This document shows positions 4,861 through 13,133 of a stretch of DNA of 37,099 nucleotides, in pieces (the stretch's first letter is position 1; every line of letters starts with the position of its first letter). The stretch covers positions 1 to 37,099 of the forward strand of contig DASSIZ010000083.1 in assembly GCA_035691485.1 (NCBI GenBank). The letters run 5' to 3'. Source of the stretch: Terriglobales bacterium (GTDB lineage: Bacteria; Acidobacteriota; Terriglobia; Terriglobales; Acidobacteriaceae). Made by a program: the position numbers and the translations under genes. A model generated the notes under the pieces. That model was not told the origin of the DNA, made no database searches, and saw nothing but the letters and a program-made list of their open reading frames with translations.

Positions 4861-6102
4861 TTATTTTGGGCGCCCGTGGGCAAACAGGCGCTTCATGTTT
4901 TCCGATGGAGGACGGGTGCAGCACTCGCCGGGAGGAATCGGCGCGCCGTGCGGGCAAGTCTTCGGGTGGCCCAGGAAAGCGCAGATTTTTTCCGTCGCCT
5001 CGGGCGAGAGGATGTGCTCGAACTTGCACGCCTGCTCCTCGATCTCCTCTTCGTTGACCATGCCCAGGCTGGTCGTAAACAGCTGCTCGGCCAGTCGGTG
5101 GCGGCGGATGACATCGGCCGCGCGCTTGCGTCCGCGCTCGGTGAATTCGATCATCAGGCTGCCGTCAGCGGGAATTTCCCCGCTGTAGACCATGGCGTCG
5201 TGGCAGGGATTGACCACGTGCTTATGGCCGTGCGGCTCCGGGGGATGCGGCGCCGAGGTCACCAGGTCCAGCTCGACCATGCGTTCCAGGGCGAGCGACG
5301 GCGGCAGCGCGCCCGGTCCGTGCACTTCCATGCGCCCCAGTTCAGCCATCTCGCCGTGCTCCTGGAGCACCCAGATTTCCTCGAGGATTTCGTCAATCTG
5401 CTCTTCATCGCGCAGGACAAAGGTTTCGATCGTGGAAATTTTTCCGTGATGCAGCTCGATGCGGCGGTCCGCCATGCGCGCCACCACCGGATCGTGCGTC
5501 ACCATGACGATGGTGCGTCCCTGCTGGTGCAGTTCGCGTAGCAGGCGCATGACGATTTCCTCGTTCTGCGCGTCCAGGTTGCCGGTGGGCTCGTCGGCGA
5601 GAACGATCTTGGGATCGTTGATCAGCGCGCGCGCAATGCAGACGCGCTGCTGCTCGCCGCCGGAAAGATGCGCCGGAAGATGATGCGCGCGGTCGCGCAA
5701 CCCGACGCGCTCCAGCGCGTTGAGCGCTTCCGGCTCGTCGGTCATGCTGTGGAAGTATTGCGCCAACAGCACGTTTTCCAGCGCGGTGAGATACGGGATC
5801 AGGTGAAACTGCTGGAAGACGAAACCGATCTTCTCCGCGCGCACGCGGTTGAGCTGCGAGCTGGAAAGCGCGGCAACATTCTCGCCGTCGAGCCAGATTT
5901 CGCCGGAGGAAGGACGATCCAGGCAGCCGATGAGGTTGACCAGCGTGGATTTCCCGGAGCCCGAGGGTCCCATCATGGCCAGCCACTCGCCGGGCGCGAC
6001 GGTGAGCGTCACGTTGTCCAGCGCCTTGATGACGCCGCCATTGGCGTCGGCCTTGGCCGGATACTCGCGGGATACATTGACCAGGCGGATCATCTCACTC
6101 AC
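4861..6102 (-). CDS. ABC transporter ATPase fused to a DtxR/IdeR-like metal-sensing module
   Basis: 413 residues in one uninterrupted frame. Residues 1-230 are a MacB/LolD-type ATPase: Walker A GPSGSGKS (45-52), signature LSGGEQQR (146-153), Walker B LADEP (168-172), switch His203. Residues 231-290 resemble the DtxR winged helix (QIDEILEEIWVLQEHGEMAE ... ALERMVELDLV). Residues 281-318 are a His/Cys-rich insert in the wing (H286, H291, H293, H295, C300, H301). Residues 321-395 match the DtxR dimer/metal domain: H335 and E339 in RHRLAEQ, then C359, E362 and H363 in ACKFEH, the ligands used by Fe(II)-type DtxR/IdeR rather than Mn-type MntR. It overlaps the upstream permease by 8 bp and is last in the iron-uptake operon. 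Whether the module binds DNA or gates the ATPase is unknown. Confidence 0.85.
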   Translation of the reverse strand: MSEMIRLVNVSREYPAKADANGGVIKALDNVTLTVAPGEWLAMMGPSGSGKSTLVNLIGCLDRPSSGEIWLDGENVAALSSSQLNRVRAEKIGFVFQQFHLIPYLTALENVLLAQYFHSMTDEPEALNALERVGLRDRAHHLPAHLSGGEQQRVCIARALINDPKIVLADEPTGNLDAQNEEIVMRLLRELHQQGRTIVMVTHDPVVARMADRRIELHHGKISTIETFVLRDEEQIDEILEEIWVLQEHGEMAELGRMEVHGPGALPPSLALERMVELDLVTSAPHPPEPHGHKHVVNPCHDAMVYSGEIPADGSLMIEFTERGRKRAADVIRRHRLAEQLFTTSLGMVNEEEIEEQACKFEHILSPEATEKICAFLGHPKTCPHGAPIPPGECCTRPPSENMKRLFAHGRPK

Positions 6103-7213
6103 CCCTCAGTATGGTAGCAGGCTGCACCCGCCGCAACAGGCTGATGGGGAGCACGGCCGAGATCAAGGCCAGGGCCACGCTGCCGGCGAACACGGCAGGG
6201 AACACGGCGAAGCGCGGGACCACGGCGGCATGAAAATTCACCCGCCCGATCCATGCCGCCACGCCGATGCCGATGGCAAATCCTAGAACCGCTCCGGCAG
6301 CGCCGAGCGCGGCCGCCTCGGCGGCGAAGAAGCCGTTCACCACGCGCTCGGACGCACCCAAAGCTTTCATGATGGCAAAATCGCGGCGGCGGTCCAGTAC
6401 CCAGGCCGTGAGCGTCGCCAGCACGCAGAGCGCGGCCGTGAGGATGATCATGGCAACCGCAGCCAGCAGCGCGGCGCGCGTCTTGCCCAGGACGCGGGCT
6501 TCGCCTTCCACGATCTGCCGAACCGGCTTCACCTCCGCCGCCGGCAAGGCATTCGCAAGTTGGCCGATGACGGCGTTGATTTCCGCCGGCGTGCCGTTGA
6601 CACCGATCTCAATCGTCGAAGCCGGCACCCCGGTCCAGGCGGTGAACTCTTTCAGGTCAAGATAGATGCGGCTGTCCTCGGCCGCTCCGGTGCGCAGTAT
6701 TCCTGCAGGCATTAGTTGAAGCTTTCGCCCTTCAAAGTTGATATTAAATGGCTTGCGTCCTGGTGAAACAACAGAAGCTGCGCGCGTTCCCAACAGCGCC
6801 GAGTGGGCCGCGCTCGGCCAGGCAGTCACCGACCACCAGGAGTTCAACTTGCGCACCCGCTCCATGTCGGTTCCGGCGACCACGATCGGGGCGCCGGTGT
6901 CGGTGCGTGTAACCGCGAAGGCGAAGGGAACCGCCAGGCCGGAATTGCCGATCACGCTCTCCACGCGCGAGAGTGCGTCAACCGGAAGGGTCTGGCCTTC
7001 GCGCGCAACCACCACCACGTTGGCGCCATAGCTGCGGAATTCCTTGCGTAGCTTGGCCTGCACGTCGACGTAGAGGTTCATCATGGCGGTGGCGACGGAA
7101 GCAGCCACGACGACCGCAACCAGGGCAGAGATCACGCGGCCGGGCTTGACCATGGTCGCCCGCATCAGCATGCGGAAGAACATCGGGTTGCGGCTGCCGG
7201 TACGCTGCTTCAT
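6095..7213 (-). CDS. ABC transporter permease, FtsX/MacB type (second permease of the iron system)
   Basis: 372 residues. One N-terminal membrane helix (VISALVAVVVAASVATAMM, about 28-46), a roughly 200-residue extracytoplasmic MacB-PCD-like domain, then three C-terminal helices with the FtsX hallmark RRRDFAIMKALGASE between the first and second, ending in a charged tail (RRVQPATILRGE). It would form a heterodimeric permease with the product of 7210-8475, powered by the ATPase at 4861-6102. Its ATG overlaps the upstream gene's stop (ATGA, 4 bp), showing translational coupling. The order FTR1/DUF2318 - FtsX - FtsX - ATPase matches the Campylobacter Cj1658-Cj1663 (P19) type iron locus. Confidence 0.85.
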   Translation of the reverse strand: MKQRTGSRNPMFFRMLMRATMVKPGRVISALVAVVVAASVATAMMNLYVDVQAKLRKEFRSYGANVVVVAREGQTLPVDALSRVESVIGNSGLAVPFAFAVTRTDTGAPIVVAGTDMERVRKLNSWWSVTAWPSAAHSALLGTRAASVVSPGRKPFNINFEGRKLQLMPAGILRTGAAEDSRIYLDLKEFTAWTGVPASTIEIGVNGTPAEINAVIGQLANALPAAEVKPVRQIVEGEARVLGKTRAALLAAVAMIILTAALCVLATLTAWVLDRRRDFAIMKALGASERVVNGFFAAEAAALGAAGAVLGFAIGIGVAAWIGRVNFHAAVVPRFAVFPAVFAGSVALALISAVLPISLLRRVQPATILRGE

Positions 7214-8475
7214 GCGTCACCTCGCAGCACCATCACAGGGTCGAACTGCATGGCCTTGCGGATGGATGCGGCGCTGCCGGCGAAAGTCACCAAAATCGCC
7301 AGCGCGATCACGACCGGGAAGAGCACAGGCTGGACGGCAATGCTGGAATTGAAAACCCAGCGTCCGATCTGGCGCGCCATCAGGTTGCCGAAACCATATC
7401 CCGCGGCGCCGCCGATCACCGCCAGCAGCGCGGCTTCGGCGAAGAACAGAGTCGCCACCGCGGAGTTTCCCGCGCCCAGGGCCTTCATCAGTCCCACTTC
7501 GCCGCGACGCTCGAAGATGGCGGTCGCCATGGCCGCCGATACCGCCAGCGCCGACGCCAGCAGCGCCGCCAGCGTGACCAGCAGCATCAGGCCCTTGATT
7601 TTCTGCAGCACCGTACCTTCGTTCTGCGCCACCTGGCGGATCTGCTCGGCGTGGGAGTGCGGGATGGTCTCCTGCAACTGGTAGGCGATGGAGCTTACGT
7701 AGGGCGAGCAGTACCAGCGGTCGAAAACTTCCGGCGACATGGTCTTGGGATCGCGGCGGGCCAGCGCGTCTTCCGGCTTGGTCATGGCGCTGACCAGCAC
7801 GCGGCGAACCGCGCCGGGCCGGCCGAGAATCTGTTGCGCCAGCGCCAGCGGAGCGACCATCTGGCTGTCCTCGACGCCGTCGGAGGAAAGGATGCCGGCG
7901 ACATGCAACTTGCGTCCCGCCGCCTGGACCTCATCGCCGACCTTGCTTCCCAGTTGCTGTGCCAGGCGCTCGCCGAGCAAAACGTCGTCGGAACTGTCGC
8001 TCGGCCATGCTCCTCGGACCTTCCACCAGGGCTGGGTGATGCGCACCCCGGTGGTGAATGTGTCTTTGCCGTTGGTCAGCTGCTTGGAGAAGTAGGTTCC
8101 CAACAATTGCGCCGGTAGCACGGCGGGGCCGTTCTGGATGGTCACCGGCACCGTCAGCATGGGTGAAAAACCAACGATGTTGTGCCGCCAGAACATGTTG
8201 TTGATGCCGGGCAGAGCGCTTTCCTCGAGGTAGGCGCCCGAGCTGGCGGGCTTCAGATTGACACCGCCGATTTCGACGTCGAGGGTGTCTTCGTCGGAGG
8301 TGACGACTAGGTTGGCGCCATAGGTGCGCAACTCGCGGTTGATCTTGTCGCCGATGTCAGTGGCCACCGCAATCATTGCCGTCGCCACCGAGACGCCGAG
8401 CGTGATGGCGATCCCGGCGAGCAGCTTGCGCCGCCGCTGGCGAAGGAACGATTGATAGAGCAGGCGAAAGAACAT
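7210..8475 (-). CDS. ABC transporter permease, FtsX/MacB type (first permease of the iron system)
   Basis: 421 residues from ATG 8475. This start is preferred to the longer frame because it comes 4 bp after the FTR1 stop and begins MFFRLLYQSFLRQRRRK, like its partner (MFFRMLMRA). N-terminal helix at about 18-38, a large periplasmic domain of about 240 residues, then three helices containing FERRGEVGLMKALGAGN, and the tail MQFDPVMVLRGD. The periplasmic part is longer than in its partner, so the two are probably non-equivalent halves of one permease. Role inferred from synteny: moving iron, or energising its transfer, together with FTR1-DUF2318 at the inner membrane. Confidence 0.85.
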   Translation of the reverse strand: MFFRLLYQSFLRQRRRKLLAGIAITLGVSVATAMIAVATDIGDKINRELRTYGANLVVTSDEDTLDVEIGGVNLKPASSGAYLEESALPGINNMFWRHNIVGFSPMLTVPVTIQNGPAVLPAQLLGTYFSKQLTNGKDTFTTGVRITQPWWKVRGAWPSDSSDDVLLGERLAQQLGSKVGDEVQAAGRKLHVAGILSSDGVEDSQMVAPLALAQQILGRPGAVRRVLVSAMTKPEDALARRDPKTMSPEVFDRWYCSPYVSSIAYQLQETIPHSHAEQIRQVAQNEGTVLQKIKGLMLLVTLAALLASALAVSAAMATAIFERRGEVGLMKALGAGNSAVATLFFAEAALLAVIGGAAGYGFGNLMARQIGRWVFNSSIAVQPVLFPVVIALAILVTFAGSAASIRKAMQFDPVMVLRGDA

Positions 8476-8479
8476 GGCG

Positions 8480-9730
8480 TCACTGTTTGAAGTACTTGGC
8501 GCTAGCGGCCAAGTCGGCCTCGGCAATCACCACCGAATCGCCGGTGGTCGTGGCCTTCAGCGGCACCGGGTTGCACCCGCCCGGCTGGCCCACCGACTGC
8601 GGATTGATGGGCGCCGCGCAGTTTTTGCAAATCAGGTTGCCGCCGCTCTTGTAAAAGCCGACCGGGCCGCAGATCTCGCAGGTGTCGAGCACGGTCGCGA
8701 TTTTTCCGTCCGGCTTGCGCAGCAGAAAGAAGCGGACCTCATTGCCATTGACGTGCGCGACGTAGCGATGCAGGTCGCCGTCATTGACTTGCGCCAGCGG
8801 AATGCGTGCCTCTCCCTGCGTGATCGACACTTCCGTCGCCGGCGAAAGCGCACTGGCGCTCTTGGCATAGATGAATTGCGCCGTGATCAGCATGATGAAC
8901 ACGAACGAGCTGGCATACACCGCGGTCGCCCACATGCGCTCGCGGCGCGCCGTCCATTCCACCTTGCGGCGCTCGGCGCTGGAAGCGGTCGCGGGAACAT
9001 TCGTCTGGCGGCGGCGGTATTCGAAAAGGACCATCATCCCGGCTAACGCCAGGATGGTGATGAAGAAGAACAGGTCGTTACGCACGATGGGTCCGATCAG
9101 CGCCATCTCGCGCTTGCTGGAGGGCAGCACCCCGTTTTCCGACAGCTCGTGCAGCCCCGAGATCACCAGCTGGAAGGCGACAAAGAAGAGAATGACGGTG
9201 GTGACCCGGAAAAATTTCTGCAGGTTGACGCGCACGCTTCCTTTGACGAAGGTCACGCCGAACACTACCGCCAGGGCCACCCCGAGCAGCGTTCCCAGGA
9301 AGCTCATCAGTTCGGTGCTGTTGAGCGTGACCGCGGAGAGAATCAGCACCGTCTCCACGCCTTCGCGCAACACCATCAGGAAGACGAAGGCGAACAGGCC
9401 GAGGCGGGAGCTGCGGGCGGCCATGGCGCCAACTTTGCCTTCAATGTCGCCCTTCAGACGGCGGCCGGTGCGCATCATGAAGATGATCATGGTGACGACA
9501 AATACGGCGGCCACCAGCATCACCCAGCCTTCAAAGATGTCCTGGTTGAAGTTAAGGCGGGACAAAGCGATGGCGGCCGCGACACTGCCGGCCGCGGCGG
9601 CGCCCAGGGCGGCAAAAACGGCCTTCCTCAGGTCGGGCCGGCCGATCTTGTTGATATAGGCGAGGGTAATGCCGACGATCAGGGCGGCCTCGACCCCTTC
9701 GCGCAAGGTGACAACGAGGGCTTCAAGCAT
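8480..9730 (-). CDS. FTR1-family iron permease fused to a DUF2318 Fe-binding domain
   Basis: 416 residues. The N-terminal FTR1/EfeU-like part (1-290) has the two iron-binding REGVE motifs at 10-14 and 122-126 and about seven to eight membrane helices. The C-terminal part (about 300-410) is a DUF2318-like domain facing outside, with CEIC (351-354), CKNC (368-371) and Cys386, probably binding metal. In the Campylobacter P19 locus the permease and the DUF2318 protein are separate genes; here they are one polypeptide. No P19/FetP periplasmic protein is found in the window. First gene of the operon, 4 bp before the first permease, with promoter, Fur-like and CRP-like sites directly upstream. Likely substrate Fe(II)/Fe(III) at the inner membrane (inference). 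Confidence 0.9.
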   Translation of the reverse strand: MLEALVVTLREGVEAALIVGITLAYINKIGRPDLRKAVFAALGAAAAGSVAAAIALSRLNFNQDIFEGWVMLVAAVFVVTMIIFMMRTGRRLKGDIEGKVGAMAARSSRLGLFAFVFLMVLREGVETVLILSAVTLNSTELMSFLGTLLGVALAVVFGVTFVKGSVRVNLQKFFRVTTVILFFVAFQLVISGLHELSENGVLPSSKREMALIGPIVRNDLFFFITILALAGMMVLFEYRRRQTNVPATASSAERRKVEWTARRERMWATAVYASSFVFIMLITAQFIYAKSASALSPATEVSITQGEARIPLAQVNDGDLHRYVAHVNGNEVRFFLLRKPDGKIATVLDTCEICGPVGFYKSGGNLICKNCAAPINPQSVGQPGGCNPVPLKATTTGDSVVIAEADLAASAKYFKQ

Positions 9731-9751: not shown

Positions 9752-9772
9752 TGAAATTGAAATTCATTTTCA
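9752..9772 (-). promoter_or_regulatory. Fur-box-like operator of the iron-uptake operon
   Basis: On the plus strand the segment reads TGAAAT-TGAAAT-T-CATTTTCA. The 7-1-7 core TGAAATT-C-ATTTTCA (9758-9772) matches the Fur consensus TGATAAT-N-ATTATCA at 11 of 14 positions. It lies 22-42 bp before the FTR1 ATG and just downstream of the predicted transcription start, where binding would block initiation. A site for the operon's own DtxR-like domain is an alternative. Confidence 0.55.
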
Positions 9773-9846: not shown

Positions 9847-10068
9847 GGGGAAAACCACGCCGCGAGCGGGAAATGGGCCCCGGTCCCCTCCCAGGCGCCG
9901 TTCGGGGGCAGACTATTGAACGCCCACGCCTCCTGCCCCTGACCGTTTTTGTGTAGCGGCGGAATTCATGTCGCCGATCACGACGGACTCAGCCCTCCCG
10001 AAGCGGGATGGATTCTGCCCCGCCTGCGGGCGCAACCTATTTATCAACACCCGGAAACCTTCGTAACT

Positions 10069-10097
10069 TTGAGGGTTTACGGGCGAAGTCCTATGCT
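10069..10097 (+). promoter_or_regulatory. Possible sigma70 promoter of the HEAT/PilZ gene
   Basis: TTGAGG (10069-10074), a 17-bp spacer, then TATGCT (10092-10097). The predicted start is near 10104, about 27 nt before the ATG at 10131. No convincing Shine-Dalgarno lies just before that ATG. Confidence 0.4.
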
Positions 10098-10130
10098 TGC
10101 CGTGGGGAGACACGCTTTTCTAGCGTTTTT

Positions 10131-13100
10131 ATGGCCCACAGCGATCGAATCGCCGCCGCTCGCAGTTTCGTGCGCAGTTGCAATGTTCTGCTCAAGCAGG
10201 CCGGCCTTTACGGTTTAAAACACAACCGCTGCGCGGCCCAACTGGACCTCACCTGGAAAGACCTGAGGAAAGCGCTGGCGGAACGCAAACTCGTGCTCGT
10301 GGTTGGGCGTGATCGGATCATGGTGGAAAACACGCCGACGGCAGCCGGAGCCGCGGAAAAAAGCCTGGTTGCCTTTTTCGCTACCGCCAATATCGGTCGC
10401 CTTGATTTCGATCCGCGAGTCACCGTGGAAGAATTCACCGAATTCATTCAGATCTGCTCGACCGGAAAGCCCGTCGATGTCCTCTCCAAGCTTCAGCCGG
10501 AATTGGGCAAGACGATCGGAAACATCAAGGTCGTCGAGTTCCGAGTCCTCGATACGGCTTCGTTGGCGCAAGCGCAACCGGGCACCGGTGTCCCGGGCAG
10601 TGGCGGCGGGGAGGGAGAAGCGCCGGGCACCGGACTTGACCTGGGCGTGCTGCTGAGCGACCCGCACAAACTTTTGCAATTGATTGATGCCATTCCCACC
10701 GAATCGCCGCTTCCGGCTGGAGGTACACCTGGCGCCGGCGGCGATGGTAGCGGTTATTCCGGACAAGGCGGCGGATACCGGGACGGCGAGGGCAGCGGTG
10801 GCGGTTTTTCGGGTCCCGGCGGCGAAGGCGGTTTTTCCGGAACTGGCGAGTTCCCAGCCAGCGCAGATGCCGACGGTGGTATTGCGGGTCAAGGCCGTCC
10901 CGGTGGCGCAGCAGGTGGAGTCGGCGGCGGTATTGCGGGTCAAGGCCGTCCGGGTGGCGCAGCAGGTGGCCACGGCGGCGGGGGACTTCCCGGCCACGCC
11001 GGCGGTGGTATTGCGGGTCAAGGCCGTCCGGGCGGCGCAGCACGCGGAGTGGTTGGTGGTGGACGTCCCGCCCAAGGCGTCGGTGGTGGTGGTACGGGTC
11101 AGGGCGGTCCGCACGGCGCAGCCGGTCAAAGCGGCGGCGGTGGCCAAGGCAGCGGCGGTGGCGGTTTCCAGGAAGCCGAGGTAGTCGGCGTTATCCAGTG
11201 GCTGACCAGCTTTGCCGGCGGCAAGACCGTGCCGGCCGCGACCCCAGGAAAATCGGCGTCGAACCTGCAACAGGCGATTCAGAAACTTCTGCCGGCGAAG
11301 CCGACAGCGGAGATGCGCGGCGCGTTGTTGATGCAGGTAGCAGAGCACGTGGCGCTGCGCGCCGTCAGCGACAAATACAAGACGCAAGGGCTCAATGTCA
11401 CCGCCATCCAGCAGATGCTGGATCGCATGAATTCCGAGCTGGAAAACCTACGCAAGGTGCTGCGCGCGCGCGAAGAGGAGATGGGCCGCGCCGGCCTCTC
11501 GGTTGAAAGCCATGCTGATGTCCTGGACAACAAGTTCTGGCAAGGAGTACCCGAGGAGGCCCGCCGCAAGGTGCTGCTGTCGGGCGACGCTTGGGTGCTG
11601 CCGCCGGTCATCATCCGTAACTTCGTTCAGCCGCTGCTGGCGAAACGCGCCGAGGTGGACCTTGTCAGTGACGTCCTGCGCAACTACTGCAACTTCCTGA
11701 CCCGCGAAAACCACGCCGCGCGGGCCAAGACGGCCGCGGGCGTCGGCAAGTTAGCTGACCTCTATTCTCGAATTCATTACCTCCGCGAGGTCGTGGATCT
11801 GGTGGGCAACAAGCTCGCTATCGACACCACCGGCGAGCTGGCGCCGGCGCTCAAGGAATCCTTTGTTCTACTCGGGCAGGAAGCGATTGCCGCCAGCGAC
11901 TATCTCGCGCTCGATGATTGGCTGTGCCTGTTGGAGGAGCTGAAGAAGCGCAATGCTCCCCTGGCCAAGTCGATTCGAGCCGGTGTATCCGTGGATGAGC
12001 GTGTTCCCGAGATGGTGCGGATTGCTTCTGAGCCGCCCAAGCCGCCCGAGGGGTTGATCGAGGTGCTGACGCGACTGCCGGATCCGGCGGCGCGCTGCAT
12101 CGCCGAGCGCTTTGCCGGATGTTCTACGCGCGACGAAGGCCTGCGGCTGGCCAGCGTGCTGAGCGTGCTAGGACCGGTTTCGATCGAACCTTTGCGGGAG
12201 ATGCTATACCGCGGCTCGCCCCGGGATGCGATCGCCGCTCTCGGCATTCTGACCATGCTCGATCCTGATTTCTTGCGCCCGCAACTGTCGGCGCGGCTGG
12301 GCAAATGGACCCGCGCCGAACAGGACGCGGCCTTACGACAGATCTCTGCCGCCGGCACCCCGGAGCGCGGCTCGCTCCTGCTGGACTTCCTCGACTACCT
12401 CGATCCGTTCGTCCTTCCCCTCGCGGTTGACGAAATCGGCATGGCCGGCATGGTCTCCGCCTCCAAGTTGATGCACCTGGCGCGGGGCTTGGGCCGGGCG
12501 CGCAATCTGCCGTACCTGCGGGTGAAGGCCATCGAGGCCCTCGGCCGGTTGGGGGAAAAGGCCGCCGTCCCGCTGCTCACCGAATTTCTCACCGAGCGCA
12601 CGCTGCTTACCTGGCAGCAGCCCCGGGAAATTCGGGTCGTCTCGGCGCAGTCTCTGCAGCGCATTGATGCGGAAGCGGCAGGAAACATTCTGCACGCCAG
12701 CGGCCTTACCGAGCGCGAACTTGTGCTGGGGCCGGCCAACGAAGCCAACCCAAGGTGGATACGGCAGAGGAAGTACGCGCGCGTTTCGGTCGAAAACCAT
12801 CTCGTCGGTTCGCTGGAGTTGCCCAGCGGCAGCTCGAGCATGAAGATTCACAACATCAGCCTGGGCGGCGGGTTCGGGAACACCGTGCGCGATCCGCAAG
12901 GCCTGACCGAAGCCACCCTCGATCTCTTCATCGGATTGCGCAAGCTGCCGACCCAGGTCTTTATCCGGCGAACTCGTCCGCACGAGATCTGCTTTGAGTT
13001 TGTTGACATTAGCCTTGAGGACCGCTCTCGATTGCGCGAGTACGTTGCTGAAAAATGCTTCGGCAGCGAGCCCAGCGCCAAGCTCAAGGACGACACCTCC

Positions 13101-13133
13101 TTCGACCGCCTTTCCCAAACCCCGGCCCGGTAA
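10131..13133 (+). CDS. Large HEAT-repeat protein with glycine-rich spacer and C-terminal PilZ domain
   Basis: 1000 residues from ATG 10131; the frame is open further upstream but the earlier part looks non-coding. Residues 1-145 form a conserved-looking alpha/beta segment (ARSFVRSCNVLLKQAGLYG ... LVVGRDRIMVENT), which I have seen ahead of HEAT repeats in acidobacterial proteins. Residues 197-348 are a Gly-rich spacer with a repeated GIAGQGRPGGAA unit. Residues 360-640 are helical, and about 640-870 read as HEAT-like repeats (e.g. LREMLYRGSPRDAIAALGIL). Residues 876-985 are a PilZ domain with the c-di-GMP motifs RxxxR (RKYAR, 880-884) and NISLGG. No signal peptide, so probably a cytoplasmic c-di-GMP-responsive scaffold. 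It stands alone, 117 bp before the acetyltransferase. Confidence 0.8.
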   Translation: MAHSDRIAAARSFVRSCNVLLKQAGLYGLKHNRCAAQLDLTWKDLRKALAERKLVLVVGRDRIMVENTPTAAGAAEKSLVAFFATANIGRLDFDPRVTVEEFTEFIQICSTGKPVDVLSKLQPELGKTIGNIKVVEFRVLDTASLAQAQPGTGVPGSGGGEGEAPGTGLDLGVLLSDPHKLLQLIDAIPTESPLPAGGTPGAGGDGSGYSGQGGGYRDGEGSGGGFSGPGGEGGFSGTGEFPASADADGGIAGQGRPGGAAGGVGGGIAGQGRPGGAAGGHGGGGLPGHAGGGIAGQGRPGGAARGVVGGGRPAQGVGGGGTGQGGPHGAAGQSGGGGQGSGGGGFQEAEVVGVIQWLTSFAGGKTVPAATPGKSASNLQQAIQKLLPAKPTAEMRGALLMQVAEHVALRAVSDKYKTQGLNVTAIQQMLDRMNSELENLRKVLRAREEEMGRAGLSVESHADVLDNKFWQGVPEEARRKVLLSGDAWVLPPVIIRNFVQPLLAKRAEVDLVSDVLRNYCNFLTRENHAARAKTAAGVGKLADLYSRIHYLREVVDLVGNKLAIDTTGELAPALKESFVLLGQEAIAASDYLALDDWLCLLEELKKRNAPLAKSIRAGVSVDERVPEMVRIASEPPKPPEGLIEVLTRLPDPAARCIAERFAGCSTRDEGLRLASVLSVLGPVSIEPLREMLYRGSPRDAIAALGILTMLDPDFLRPQLSARLGKWTRAEQDAALRQISAAGTPERGSLLLDFLDYLDPFVLPLAVDEIGMAGMVSASKLMHLARGLGRARNLPYLRVKAIEALGRLGEKAAVPLLTEFLTERTLLTWQQPREIRVVSAQSLQRIDAEAAGNILHASGLTERELVLGPANEANPRWIRQRKYARVSVENHLVGSLELPSGSSSMKIHNISLGGGFGNTVRDPQGLTEATLDLFIGLRKLPTQVFIRRTRPHEICFEFVDISLEDRSRLREYVAEKCFGSEPSAKLKDDTSFDRLSQTPAR
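10875..11130 (+). repeat. Intragenic glycine-rich tandem repeats
   Basis: A 36-40 bp unit containing GGTATTGCGGGTCAAGG followed by CCGTCC(C/G)GG(T/C)GGCGCAGCA occurs three times almost unchanged (near 10878, 10929 and 11007), with a fourth, diverged copy near 11090. It encodes GIAGQGRPGGAA, in frame. The near-identity at DNA level shows recent expansion or gene conversion in a spacer that joins the N-terminal and HEAT/PilZ parts. Confidence 0.85.

Follow-up and report, generated by a model that had tools for sequence, protein, structure and literature searches.

An ABC ATPase fused to a DtxR-like domain in an FTR1-linked operon of Acidobacteriota

Results

The locus and its operon

Within the window (the whole stretch of 37,099 nucleotides that was analysed), a tight operon of four genes on the minus strand encodes an FTR1-FtrD protein, two ABC permeases and, as its fourth and last gene, an ABC ATPase that continues in the same frame into a DtxR-like domain (Table 1). 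The FTR1-FtrD protein contains both the REGVE and the CxxC motif twice, the first permease may have its true start at an internal ATG, and the second permease gene shares 8 bases with the fusion gene, downstream of which lie trigger factor, clpP, and clpX. No P19, thioredoxin, or FMN-binding gene was found in the operon, where the four genes overlap or abut, leaving no space, and trigger factor comes next. The divergent neighbour at window positions 10008-13133, a frame of 1041 residues with weak HEAT-repeat and PilZ matches, is apparently unrelated. Searches of the window genome returned no second PF02742 protein and no match of FeoB strength, the best having 53.6 bits compared with 165-184 for the FeoB proteins used in the comparison.

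Table 1. Features of the operon, the fusion protein, and the promoter.
Feature	Position in the window	Strand	Basis
Putative Fur-like operator TGAAATTGAAATTCATTTTCA, ~20-40 bases upstream of the FTR1 start in the promoter of the operon	9752..9772	.	consensus match
FTR1 iron permease fused to FtrD-like domain	8480..9730	-	Pfam FTR1 1.3e-36, FtrD-like 1.2e-31
FtsX/MacB-like ABC permease (first)	7210..8526	-	Pfam FtsX and MacB_PCD
FtsX-like ABC permease (second)	6095..7213	-	Pfam FtsX 1.9e-17
ABC ATPase-DtxR fusion protein, 413 aa (GTG start 6102, stop 4861)	4861..6102	-	frame read, Pfam; join shared with 39 further loci
ATPase (NBD) part, residues 4-226, MacB/LolD type, every motif present	5425..6093	-	Pfam, motifs, Foldseek
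DtxR-like part, residues 229-395	4918..5418	-	Pfam, models, Foldseek, alignments
His/Cys insert core between the wing strands, residues 286-301	5200..5247	-	alignment; strands from model
Residues 359-395 with C359, C374, C383, C394, C395	4918..5028	-	alignment

The sequence-only reading of this DNA had described a single frame of 413 codons joining an intact MacB-type ATPase to a DtxR/IdeR-like region, and the frame itself, Pfam, and Foldseek all bear this out. Pfam places ABC_tran at residues 28-173 (2.6e-36) and Fe_dep_repr_C (PF02742) at residues 321-390 (7.7e-28), and the ATPase motifs lie at residues 45-53 (Walker A), 146-153 (signature), 167-174 (Walker B), and 200-204 (H-loop). The DtxR-like part runs from helix 1 through an altered HTH region, a wing, and the metal/dimerization helices to a cysteine motif. 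Its five predicted metal ligands (H335, E339, C359, E362, and H363), the retention of which had also been claimed, are present at these residues within motifs at 333-339 and 357-363. The AlphaFold2 model of the DtxR part has a pLDDT of 90.3 and a pTM of 0.86; that of the full-length single chain has a pLDDT of 85.8 and a pTM of 0.66, and its domain arrangement is uncertain. By Foldseek, the whole protein matches ABC ATPases, the best being the ABC domain of E. coli MacB, and for the model of residues 227-401 all 50 of the PDB matches listed are chains of the DtxR family, with IdeR (7b1v, E 8.3e-8) at the top. The closest named record, from a Terriglobia bacterium (Acidobacteriota), is 88% identical across the C-terminal part. 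The whole protein is matched by 946 phage records, of which one covers at least 80% of the query and the three listed cover the ATPase half alone; 8 phage records match the DtxR part alone, none of them over more than 80% of its length.

Distribution of the fused and unfused forms

Searches with the C-terminal part covered an order sample of 298 genomes and a phylum sample of 396 genomes, and 62 loci were examined: 60 neighbourhoods taken from the stronger matches, and L023 and L024, which came from a contig search with a single-protein query that four loci matched. The ATPase-DtxR join lies in one frame in 39 of these loci, which span eight acidobacterial families, and a separate DtxR-like protein is present in 23. 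An assembly artefact or frameshift is ruled out as the source of the join because the same join is found in 39 loci besides the window. All four ATPase motifs are present in 39 of the 40 fusions, the window counted; in L100 the signature was not found in its usual form. In 37 of the 39 further loci the fusion comes after FTR1-FtrD and two permeases encoded on its own strand, so that the placement of the fusion at the end of an iron-uptake operon, as first read from the window, holds well beyond it. In L082 the second permease shows up in two frames.

The fused genes of L103 and L104, both of family f2, lie beside unrelated genes with no FTR1 nearby; at 7145-8260 of L103 and 7957-9057 of L104 they adjoin frames whose domains are of riboflavin-synthase and NADH-dehydrogenase 20 kDa type. 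We dropped the view that the two are orphans, since their genomes (G009 and G013) carry an FTR1 operon elsewhere (L190 and L189, respectively) with no ATPase gene beside it, and they are probably the relocated ATPases of those operons. In the order sample, 87 of the 298 genomes have a match at E 1e-50 or better and six more, of family f2, have one near 1e-30, figures that count matches to the C-terminal part, the join itself having been read in the named loci. FTR1-FtrD is present in 150 of the 298, including 86 of the 87 and all six of f2.

We also read 20 additional FTR1 loci: 18 in which no fusion was evident, plus those of G009 and G013. In twelve of the 20 (L171-L181 and L188) the operon recurs, but its ATPase ends close to the point where the DtxR part would start, and 11 of these 12 belong to the window's own family (f1). 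Two others (L185 and L186) are fusions broken by contig ends, and L182, L183, L184, and L187 stop before or within the ATPase. In a tree of the ATPase part, built by a quick method and with moderate support from SH-aLRT only, the 11 unfused f1 proteins group beside the 23 fusions that carry the His/Cys insert, within the fused lineages, an arrangement that one gain and two losses of the DtxR domain would explain. The presence of the same operon without the DtxR part in 12 relatives implies that the machine works without the sensor, which is thus an add-on.

The metal-binding half and its cysteines

Three sets of proteins were compared: the 40 fusions, the 23 unfused relatives, and 19 canonical DtxR/MntR proteins of Acidobacteriota, the last being what remained of 20 taken from weaker matches after L156, in which the anchor was not found, had been left out. 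A FeoB-like frame precedes the unfused DtxR-like protein on the same strand in 19 of the 23 loci, and we refer to these proteins as the FeoB-linked class. Two of the FeoB-like frames were confirmed as FeoB by Pfam, and a C-terminal FeoA domain was found in all five proteins of the class that were tested. The FeoB-linked genes include one at L126:5638-8413, those at 18 more loci among L118-L140, and one at L168:2307-4998.

PF02742 is present in all 40 fusions. The residues that we take to be metal ligands, by analogy with DtxR, are kept in 36/40 (H335, with Gln in its place in 4/40), 40/40 (E339), 39/40 (C359), 40/40 (E362), and 40/40 (H363). The set of five cysteines from C359 to C395 is present in 39-40 of the 40 fusions (C374, C383, C394, and C395 each in 40/40) and in 22-23 of the 23 FeoB-linked proteins; at most one of the 19 canonical proteins has a cysteine at the position of C359 or C383, and none at C374, C394, or C395. 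At the positions that correspond to His98 and Met10 in DtxR numbering, glutamate is found in 36/40 and 35/40 fusions and in 22/23 and 23/23 of the FeoB-linked class, respectively. The metal halves of the fusions have a mean pairwise identity of 68%, and the examined ligand and cysteine positions are kept in 36-40 of the 40. In a tree of this half, drawn from only 87 columns with a midpoint root and a program warning of long branches, the fusions and the FeoB-linked class are split from the canonical set (97/95), and the fusions form one group (88/92) placed among the FeoB-linked class.

The DNA-binding half and the His/Cys insert

PF01325, the N-terminal winged HTH, is not matched in the window protein at E values up to 1. 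At E up to 0.1 it is found in at most two of the 40 fusions, being absent among the families listed, which go down to those with two members, and it lies above the cut-off in 3/3 canonical proteins tested and in 0/5 of the FeoB-linked class. Compared with the canonical proteins, fusions with and without the insert are 39% and 37% identical in the metal half, and 13% and 11% identical in the HTH region. For pairs matched at a metal-half identity of 0.5-0.6, HTH identity is 16% for the 197 fusion pairs, 19% for the 149 pairs of the FeoB-linked class, and 35% for the 58 canonical pairs; at 0.6-0.7 the values are 21% (278 pairs), 18% (35), and 57% (only 11 pairs); and at 0.7-0.8 both the fusions and the canonical proteins reach 58%. 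Averaged over each set, the net charge of the HTH region is -1.6 for the fusions, -2.5 for the FeoB-linked proteins, and +0.4 for the canonical ones, with overlapping ranges. The AlphaFold2 models retain helix 1, two wing strands, and, at residues 268-277, a helix that resembles a recognition helix; the second HTH helix is missing.

A plainly eroded HTH is nevertheless too simple a description, since the region is divergent between families yet constrained in the window's group, where the 23 insert-bearing fusions are 62% identical in the HTH region and 79% in the metal half. The ratio is like that of the canonical proteins (47% and 63%); the 17 insert-less fusions have 28% and 65%. The constraint in the insert-bearing fusions implies that the HTH region does something there, and it could still bind DNA.

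The His/Cys insert noticed in the sequence-only reading is real: H286, H291, H293, C300, and H301 of its core are conserved in 23/23 insert-bearing fusions, and the insert is absent from 17 of the 40. The insert probably forms a second metal site. The further suggestion that it disables DNA binding finds no support, as the fusions that do without it are no nearer to the canonical HTH than those that have it (11% as against 13% identity).

The promoter palindrome

A palindrome, most often TGAAATTGAAATTCATTTTCA, lies ~30-100 bases upstream of FTR1. When the promoters are scored against the Fur consensus and the DtxR box, 24 of 38 match the Fur consensus at 14-15 of 19 positions, which at most one of 60 shuffles equals; the best DtxR-box scores are 8-12 of 19 and are equalled by shuffles in all 38 promoters (3 to 60 of 60). 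Because the HTH is unrecognized and no DtxR box stands out from the shuffles, the DtxR part does not look like an ordinary repressor and should not be classed among the DtxR repressors, although it may use an operator other than the DtxR box. The Fur-like box is present in 22 of 23 insert-bearing promoters and in 2 of 15 of those without the insert. In the window genome two Fur-like sites were found at up to 3 mismatches, and none in the control. The second of these belongs to the region L163:1490-2817, where it sits at the point at which a frame encoding a secreted, possibly outer-membrane protein begins; a frame containing a CxxCH motif comes next, making this a candidate iron-regulated operon.

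We had initially counted the resemblance to a Fur box as disproof of self-repression, an argument that is weakened by the unfused operons, only one of the 12 of which has such a box. Among 40 chosen genomes, 20 of them fused and 20 with FTR1 but no fusion match (11 of these read as unfused), the box is present in 19/20 fused genomes versus 1/20 others, a correlation that is expected too if the fusion protein bound the box. A survey of Fur-family proteins, for which loci were read in 30 of the 40 genomes (the ten unread are all from the unfused set, with matches of at most 90.5 bits and one with no match), moved the balance back toward Fur control, though not fully. The window genome has one Fur-family match, and a Fur 62-87% identical to it is present in 17 other genomes, giving 18/40 with the window, that is, 17 fused genomes and the unfused G048. 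The box is found in 18/18 genomes with this close Fur and in 2/22 others (G095 and G246), which have the fusion and the box and for which the survey found no close Fur. The unfused G048 has both Fur and box, and the fused G103 has neither. In five of the 18 (G041, G193, G014, G070, and G252) a box starts 33-70 bases before the start of the matched fur frame. On this pattern of matches we take the palindrome to be a Fur site, with reasonable though not conclusive confidence. The G103 locus, L090, is the sole insert-bearing fused locus without a Fur-like box, and it has another palindrome, AGTTGCAACTAAGTTGCAACT, at about -38.

Discussion

A hypothetical mechanism

We propose, with a probability of roughly 0.53, that the DtxR part is a former repressor turned iron-responsive regulatory domain of an FTR1/FtrD-linked MacB-type ATPase. 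On this view the gene would supply the ATPase for a MacB-type ABC system that serves iron and is linked to FTR1/FtrD, and a C-terminal DtxR-type iron sensor would have become the regulatory domain of that ATPase. The two ATPases would bind both permeases, bringing two DtxR halves side by side in the cytosol, where the sensor would be filled either by cytosolic Fe(II) at the DtxR site or by an Fe-S cluster on the extra cysteines. The loaded DtxR domains would then pair or change shape, holding the ATPases apart or otherwise slowing their cycle, and iron uptake would be throttled at once, while transcription would be separately under Fur. That the ATPase in many soil Acidobacteria bears such a relative of an iron sensor, with an unrecognizable DNA-binding part, suggests that iron could control the transporter itself, beyond its gene. 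The sequence-only reading had offered iron gating of uptake and repression of its own operon by the ATPase as alternatives, and gating is the better supported of the two. The case for iron gating the uptake of iron comes, however, from the company of FTR1 and FtrD, because the substrate of the ABC part is given as not known even for the P19/FTR1 system of Campylobacter (PMC6083913).

Relation to known systems

The operon resembles Campylobacter jejuni 1649-1656 (P19/FTR1) and its homologues, in which FTR1 and an FtrD-like protein are likewise followed by two permeases and then an ATPase, with a Fur box upstream (PMC6083913). In contrast to that system, the window operon has FTR1 and FtrD fused and a DtxR domain on the ATPase, with no P19 or thioredoxin gene. 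The opinion that no system of this kind had been described was too strong, since close precedents exist in YtgCR (PMC5599777) and in MetN and ModC (PMC10710835). In Chlamydia YtgCR an ABC permease is fused to a DtxR-like repressor that is cleaved off and represses transcription, and permease-DtxR fusions are reported from 11 phyla (PMC5599777). Both systems have a DtxR-like iron sensor placed covalently on a subunit of a metal ABC transporter and encoded in the transporter operon, but the partner of the sensor in YtgCR is the permease of a Tro-like importer, whereas here it is a MacB-type ATPase, linked to FTR1, and the HTH is unrecognizable. The kind is therefore not wholly new, the differences from YtgCR lying in the ATPase partner, the MacB-like/FTR1 type of transporter, and the HTH. 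Among the papers listed by literature searches of open-licence papers there was none on an ATPase-DtxR fusion and none on the FeoB-linked DtxR class.

Regulatory domains fused to transporters are a common theme, and in MetN and ModC a C-terminal domain on the ABC ATPase can stop import (trans-inhibition), according to a review (PMC10710835). Like the ATPases of MetNI and ModABC, the fusion has an extra C-terminal domain on its ATPase, which here would likewise be regulatory; the domains of MetN and ModC have other folds, and substrate binding and inhibition are demonstrated for them. FeoC, which acts on FeoB (PMC10710835), offers a parallel of another kind. It has an iron importer as partner, has an Fe-S cluster, and acts on the transporter protein rather than on DNA, but it is a small separate protein and the DtxR part is fused. 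FeoC is a winged helix outside the DtxR family. With DtxR, IdeR, and MntR themselves the fusion shares the fold, the metal/dimer half, and most of the primary ligands; it differs from them in its unrecognized HTH, in glutamate at the His98 and Met10 positions, in the extra cysteine motif, and in having no SH3/FeoA domain.

Other explanations

The DtxR part might instead remain a repressor, either attached or cleaved like YtgR, that acts on its own operon at the palindrome of Table 1 when iron is plentiful, in which case the fusion would tie repression to assembly of the transporter. This has the YtgCR precedent behind it, and it would account for the palindrome in 19/20 fused versus 1/20 other genomes and for G095 and G246, in which the fusion and the box were found and a close Fur was not; it also fits the window's group, which combines the box with a conserved HTH region (62%), and a window genome with no other PF02742 protein. 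We nonetheless consider it rather unlikely. The HTH is unrecognized by Pfam, is 13% identical to the canonical one, and lacks its second helix in the model. The box resembles a Fur box, stands just upstream of fur in five genomes, and follows the close Fur (18/18 genomes versus 2/22 others), as the unfused G048, with box and Fur, and the fused G103, with neither, illustrate, and 13 of the 15 FTR1 promoters of insert-less fusions do without it. Self-repression, as it had been put forward from the sequence, is thus weakened by the HTH and the Fur-like box, while the correlation of box with fusion and the constrained HTH of the window's family still speak for it.

Three further explanations can be considered. 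Metal-binding domains of copper P-type ATPases receive metal and hand it on, and in a similar way the DtxR-like sites and the His/Cys insert could take iron from the permease and pass it on with no regulation involved. The many conserved cysteines and histidines besides the DtxR ligands, those of the insert included, would suit such a receiver; however, the DtxR ligands and dimer helices are retained as in sensors, unfused operons manage without the domain, and the expected path of iron is through the FTR1 protein and not the ABC permease, which together make this unlikely. The cysteine set could hold an Fe-S cluster and report cluster status or oxygen rather than Fe(II), much as FeoC, with its Fe-S cluster, shields FeoB from FtsH (PMC10710835). 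Five cysteines that are near-invariant in the fusions and the FeoB-linked class and missing from 18-19 of the 19 canonical relatives are in keeping with such a switch, but they could also be structural or bind Zn, and the Fe(II) ligands of DtxR are retained as well, so that we regard it as distinctly unlikely. Finally, a leftover dimerization domain might stabilize the ATPase dimer without sensing anything, and one f1 clade that retained the operon has probably lost the domain; the ligand and cysteine positions make such a tail highly improbable, as 36-40 of the 40 fusions keep them while the metal half averages 68% identity.

A wider class of sensors

Regulation of the ATPase by its DtxR domain can be placed in a broader hypothesis, which we hold tentatively and at somewhat less than even odds: that the fusions and the FeoB-linked proteins form a distinct class of DtxR-derived sensors, in Acidobacteria and at least one member of the Thermodesulfobacteriota, that lost ordinary DNA binding, gained the five-cysteine site, and acts directly on iron importers. 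One form, a separate DtxR-FeoA protein, would work on the GTPase FeoB, and the other, which arose by one fusion event, would be an ATPase brake built into the FTR1-linked ABC system. One class of sensor would then stand beside two unrelated importers. There are few systems for which it is known how an iron importer is closed before transcription can react, and a natural test set is provided by this operon, which occurs both with the sensor domain and without it inside one bacterial family. The class is not confined to Acidobacteriota, since a signature-bearing protein is also encoded after feoB on a Pelobacter propionicus plasmid. That protein is annotated as a 'metal-dependent transcriptional regulator', and if the hypothesis is true, genes annotated in this way may regulate proteins, not DNA.
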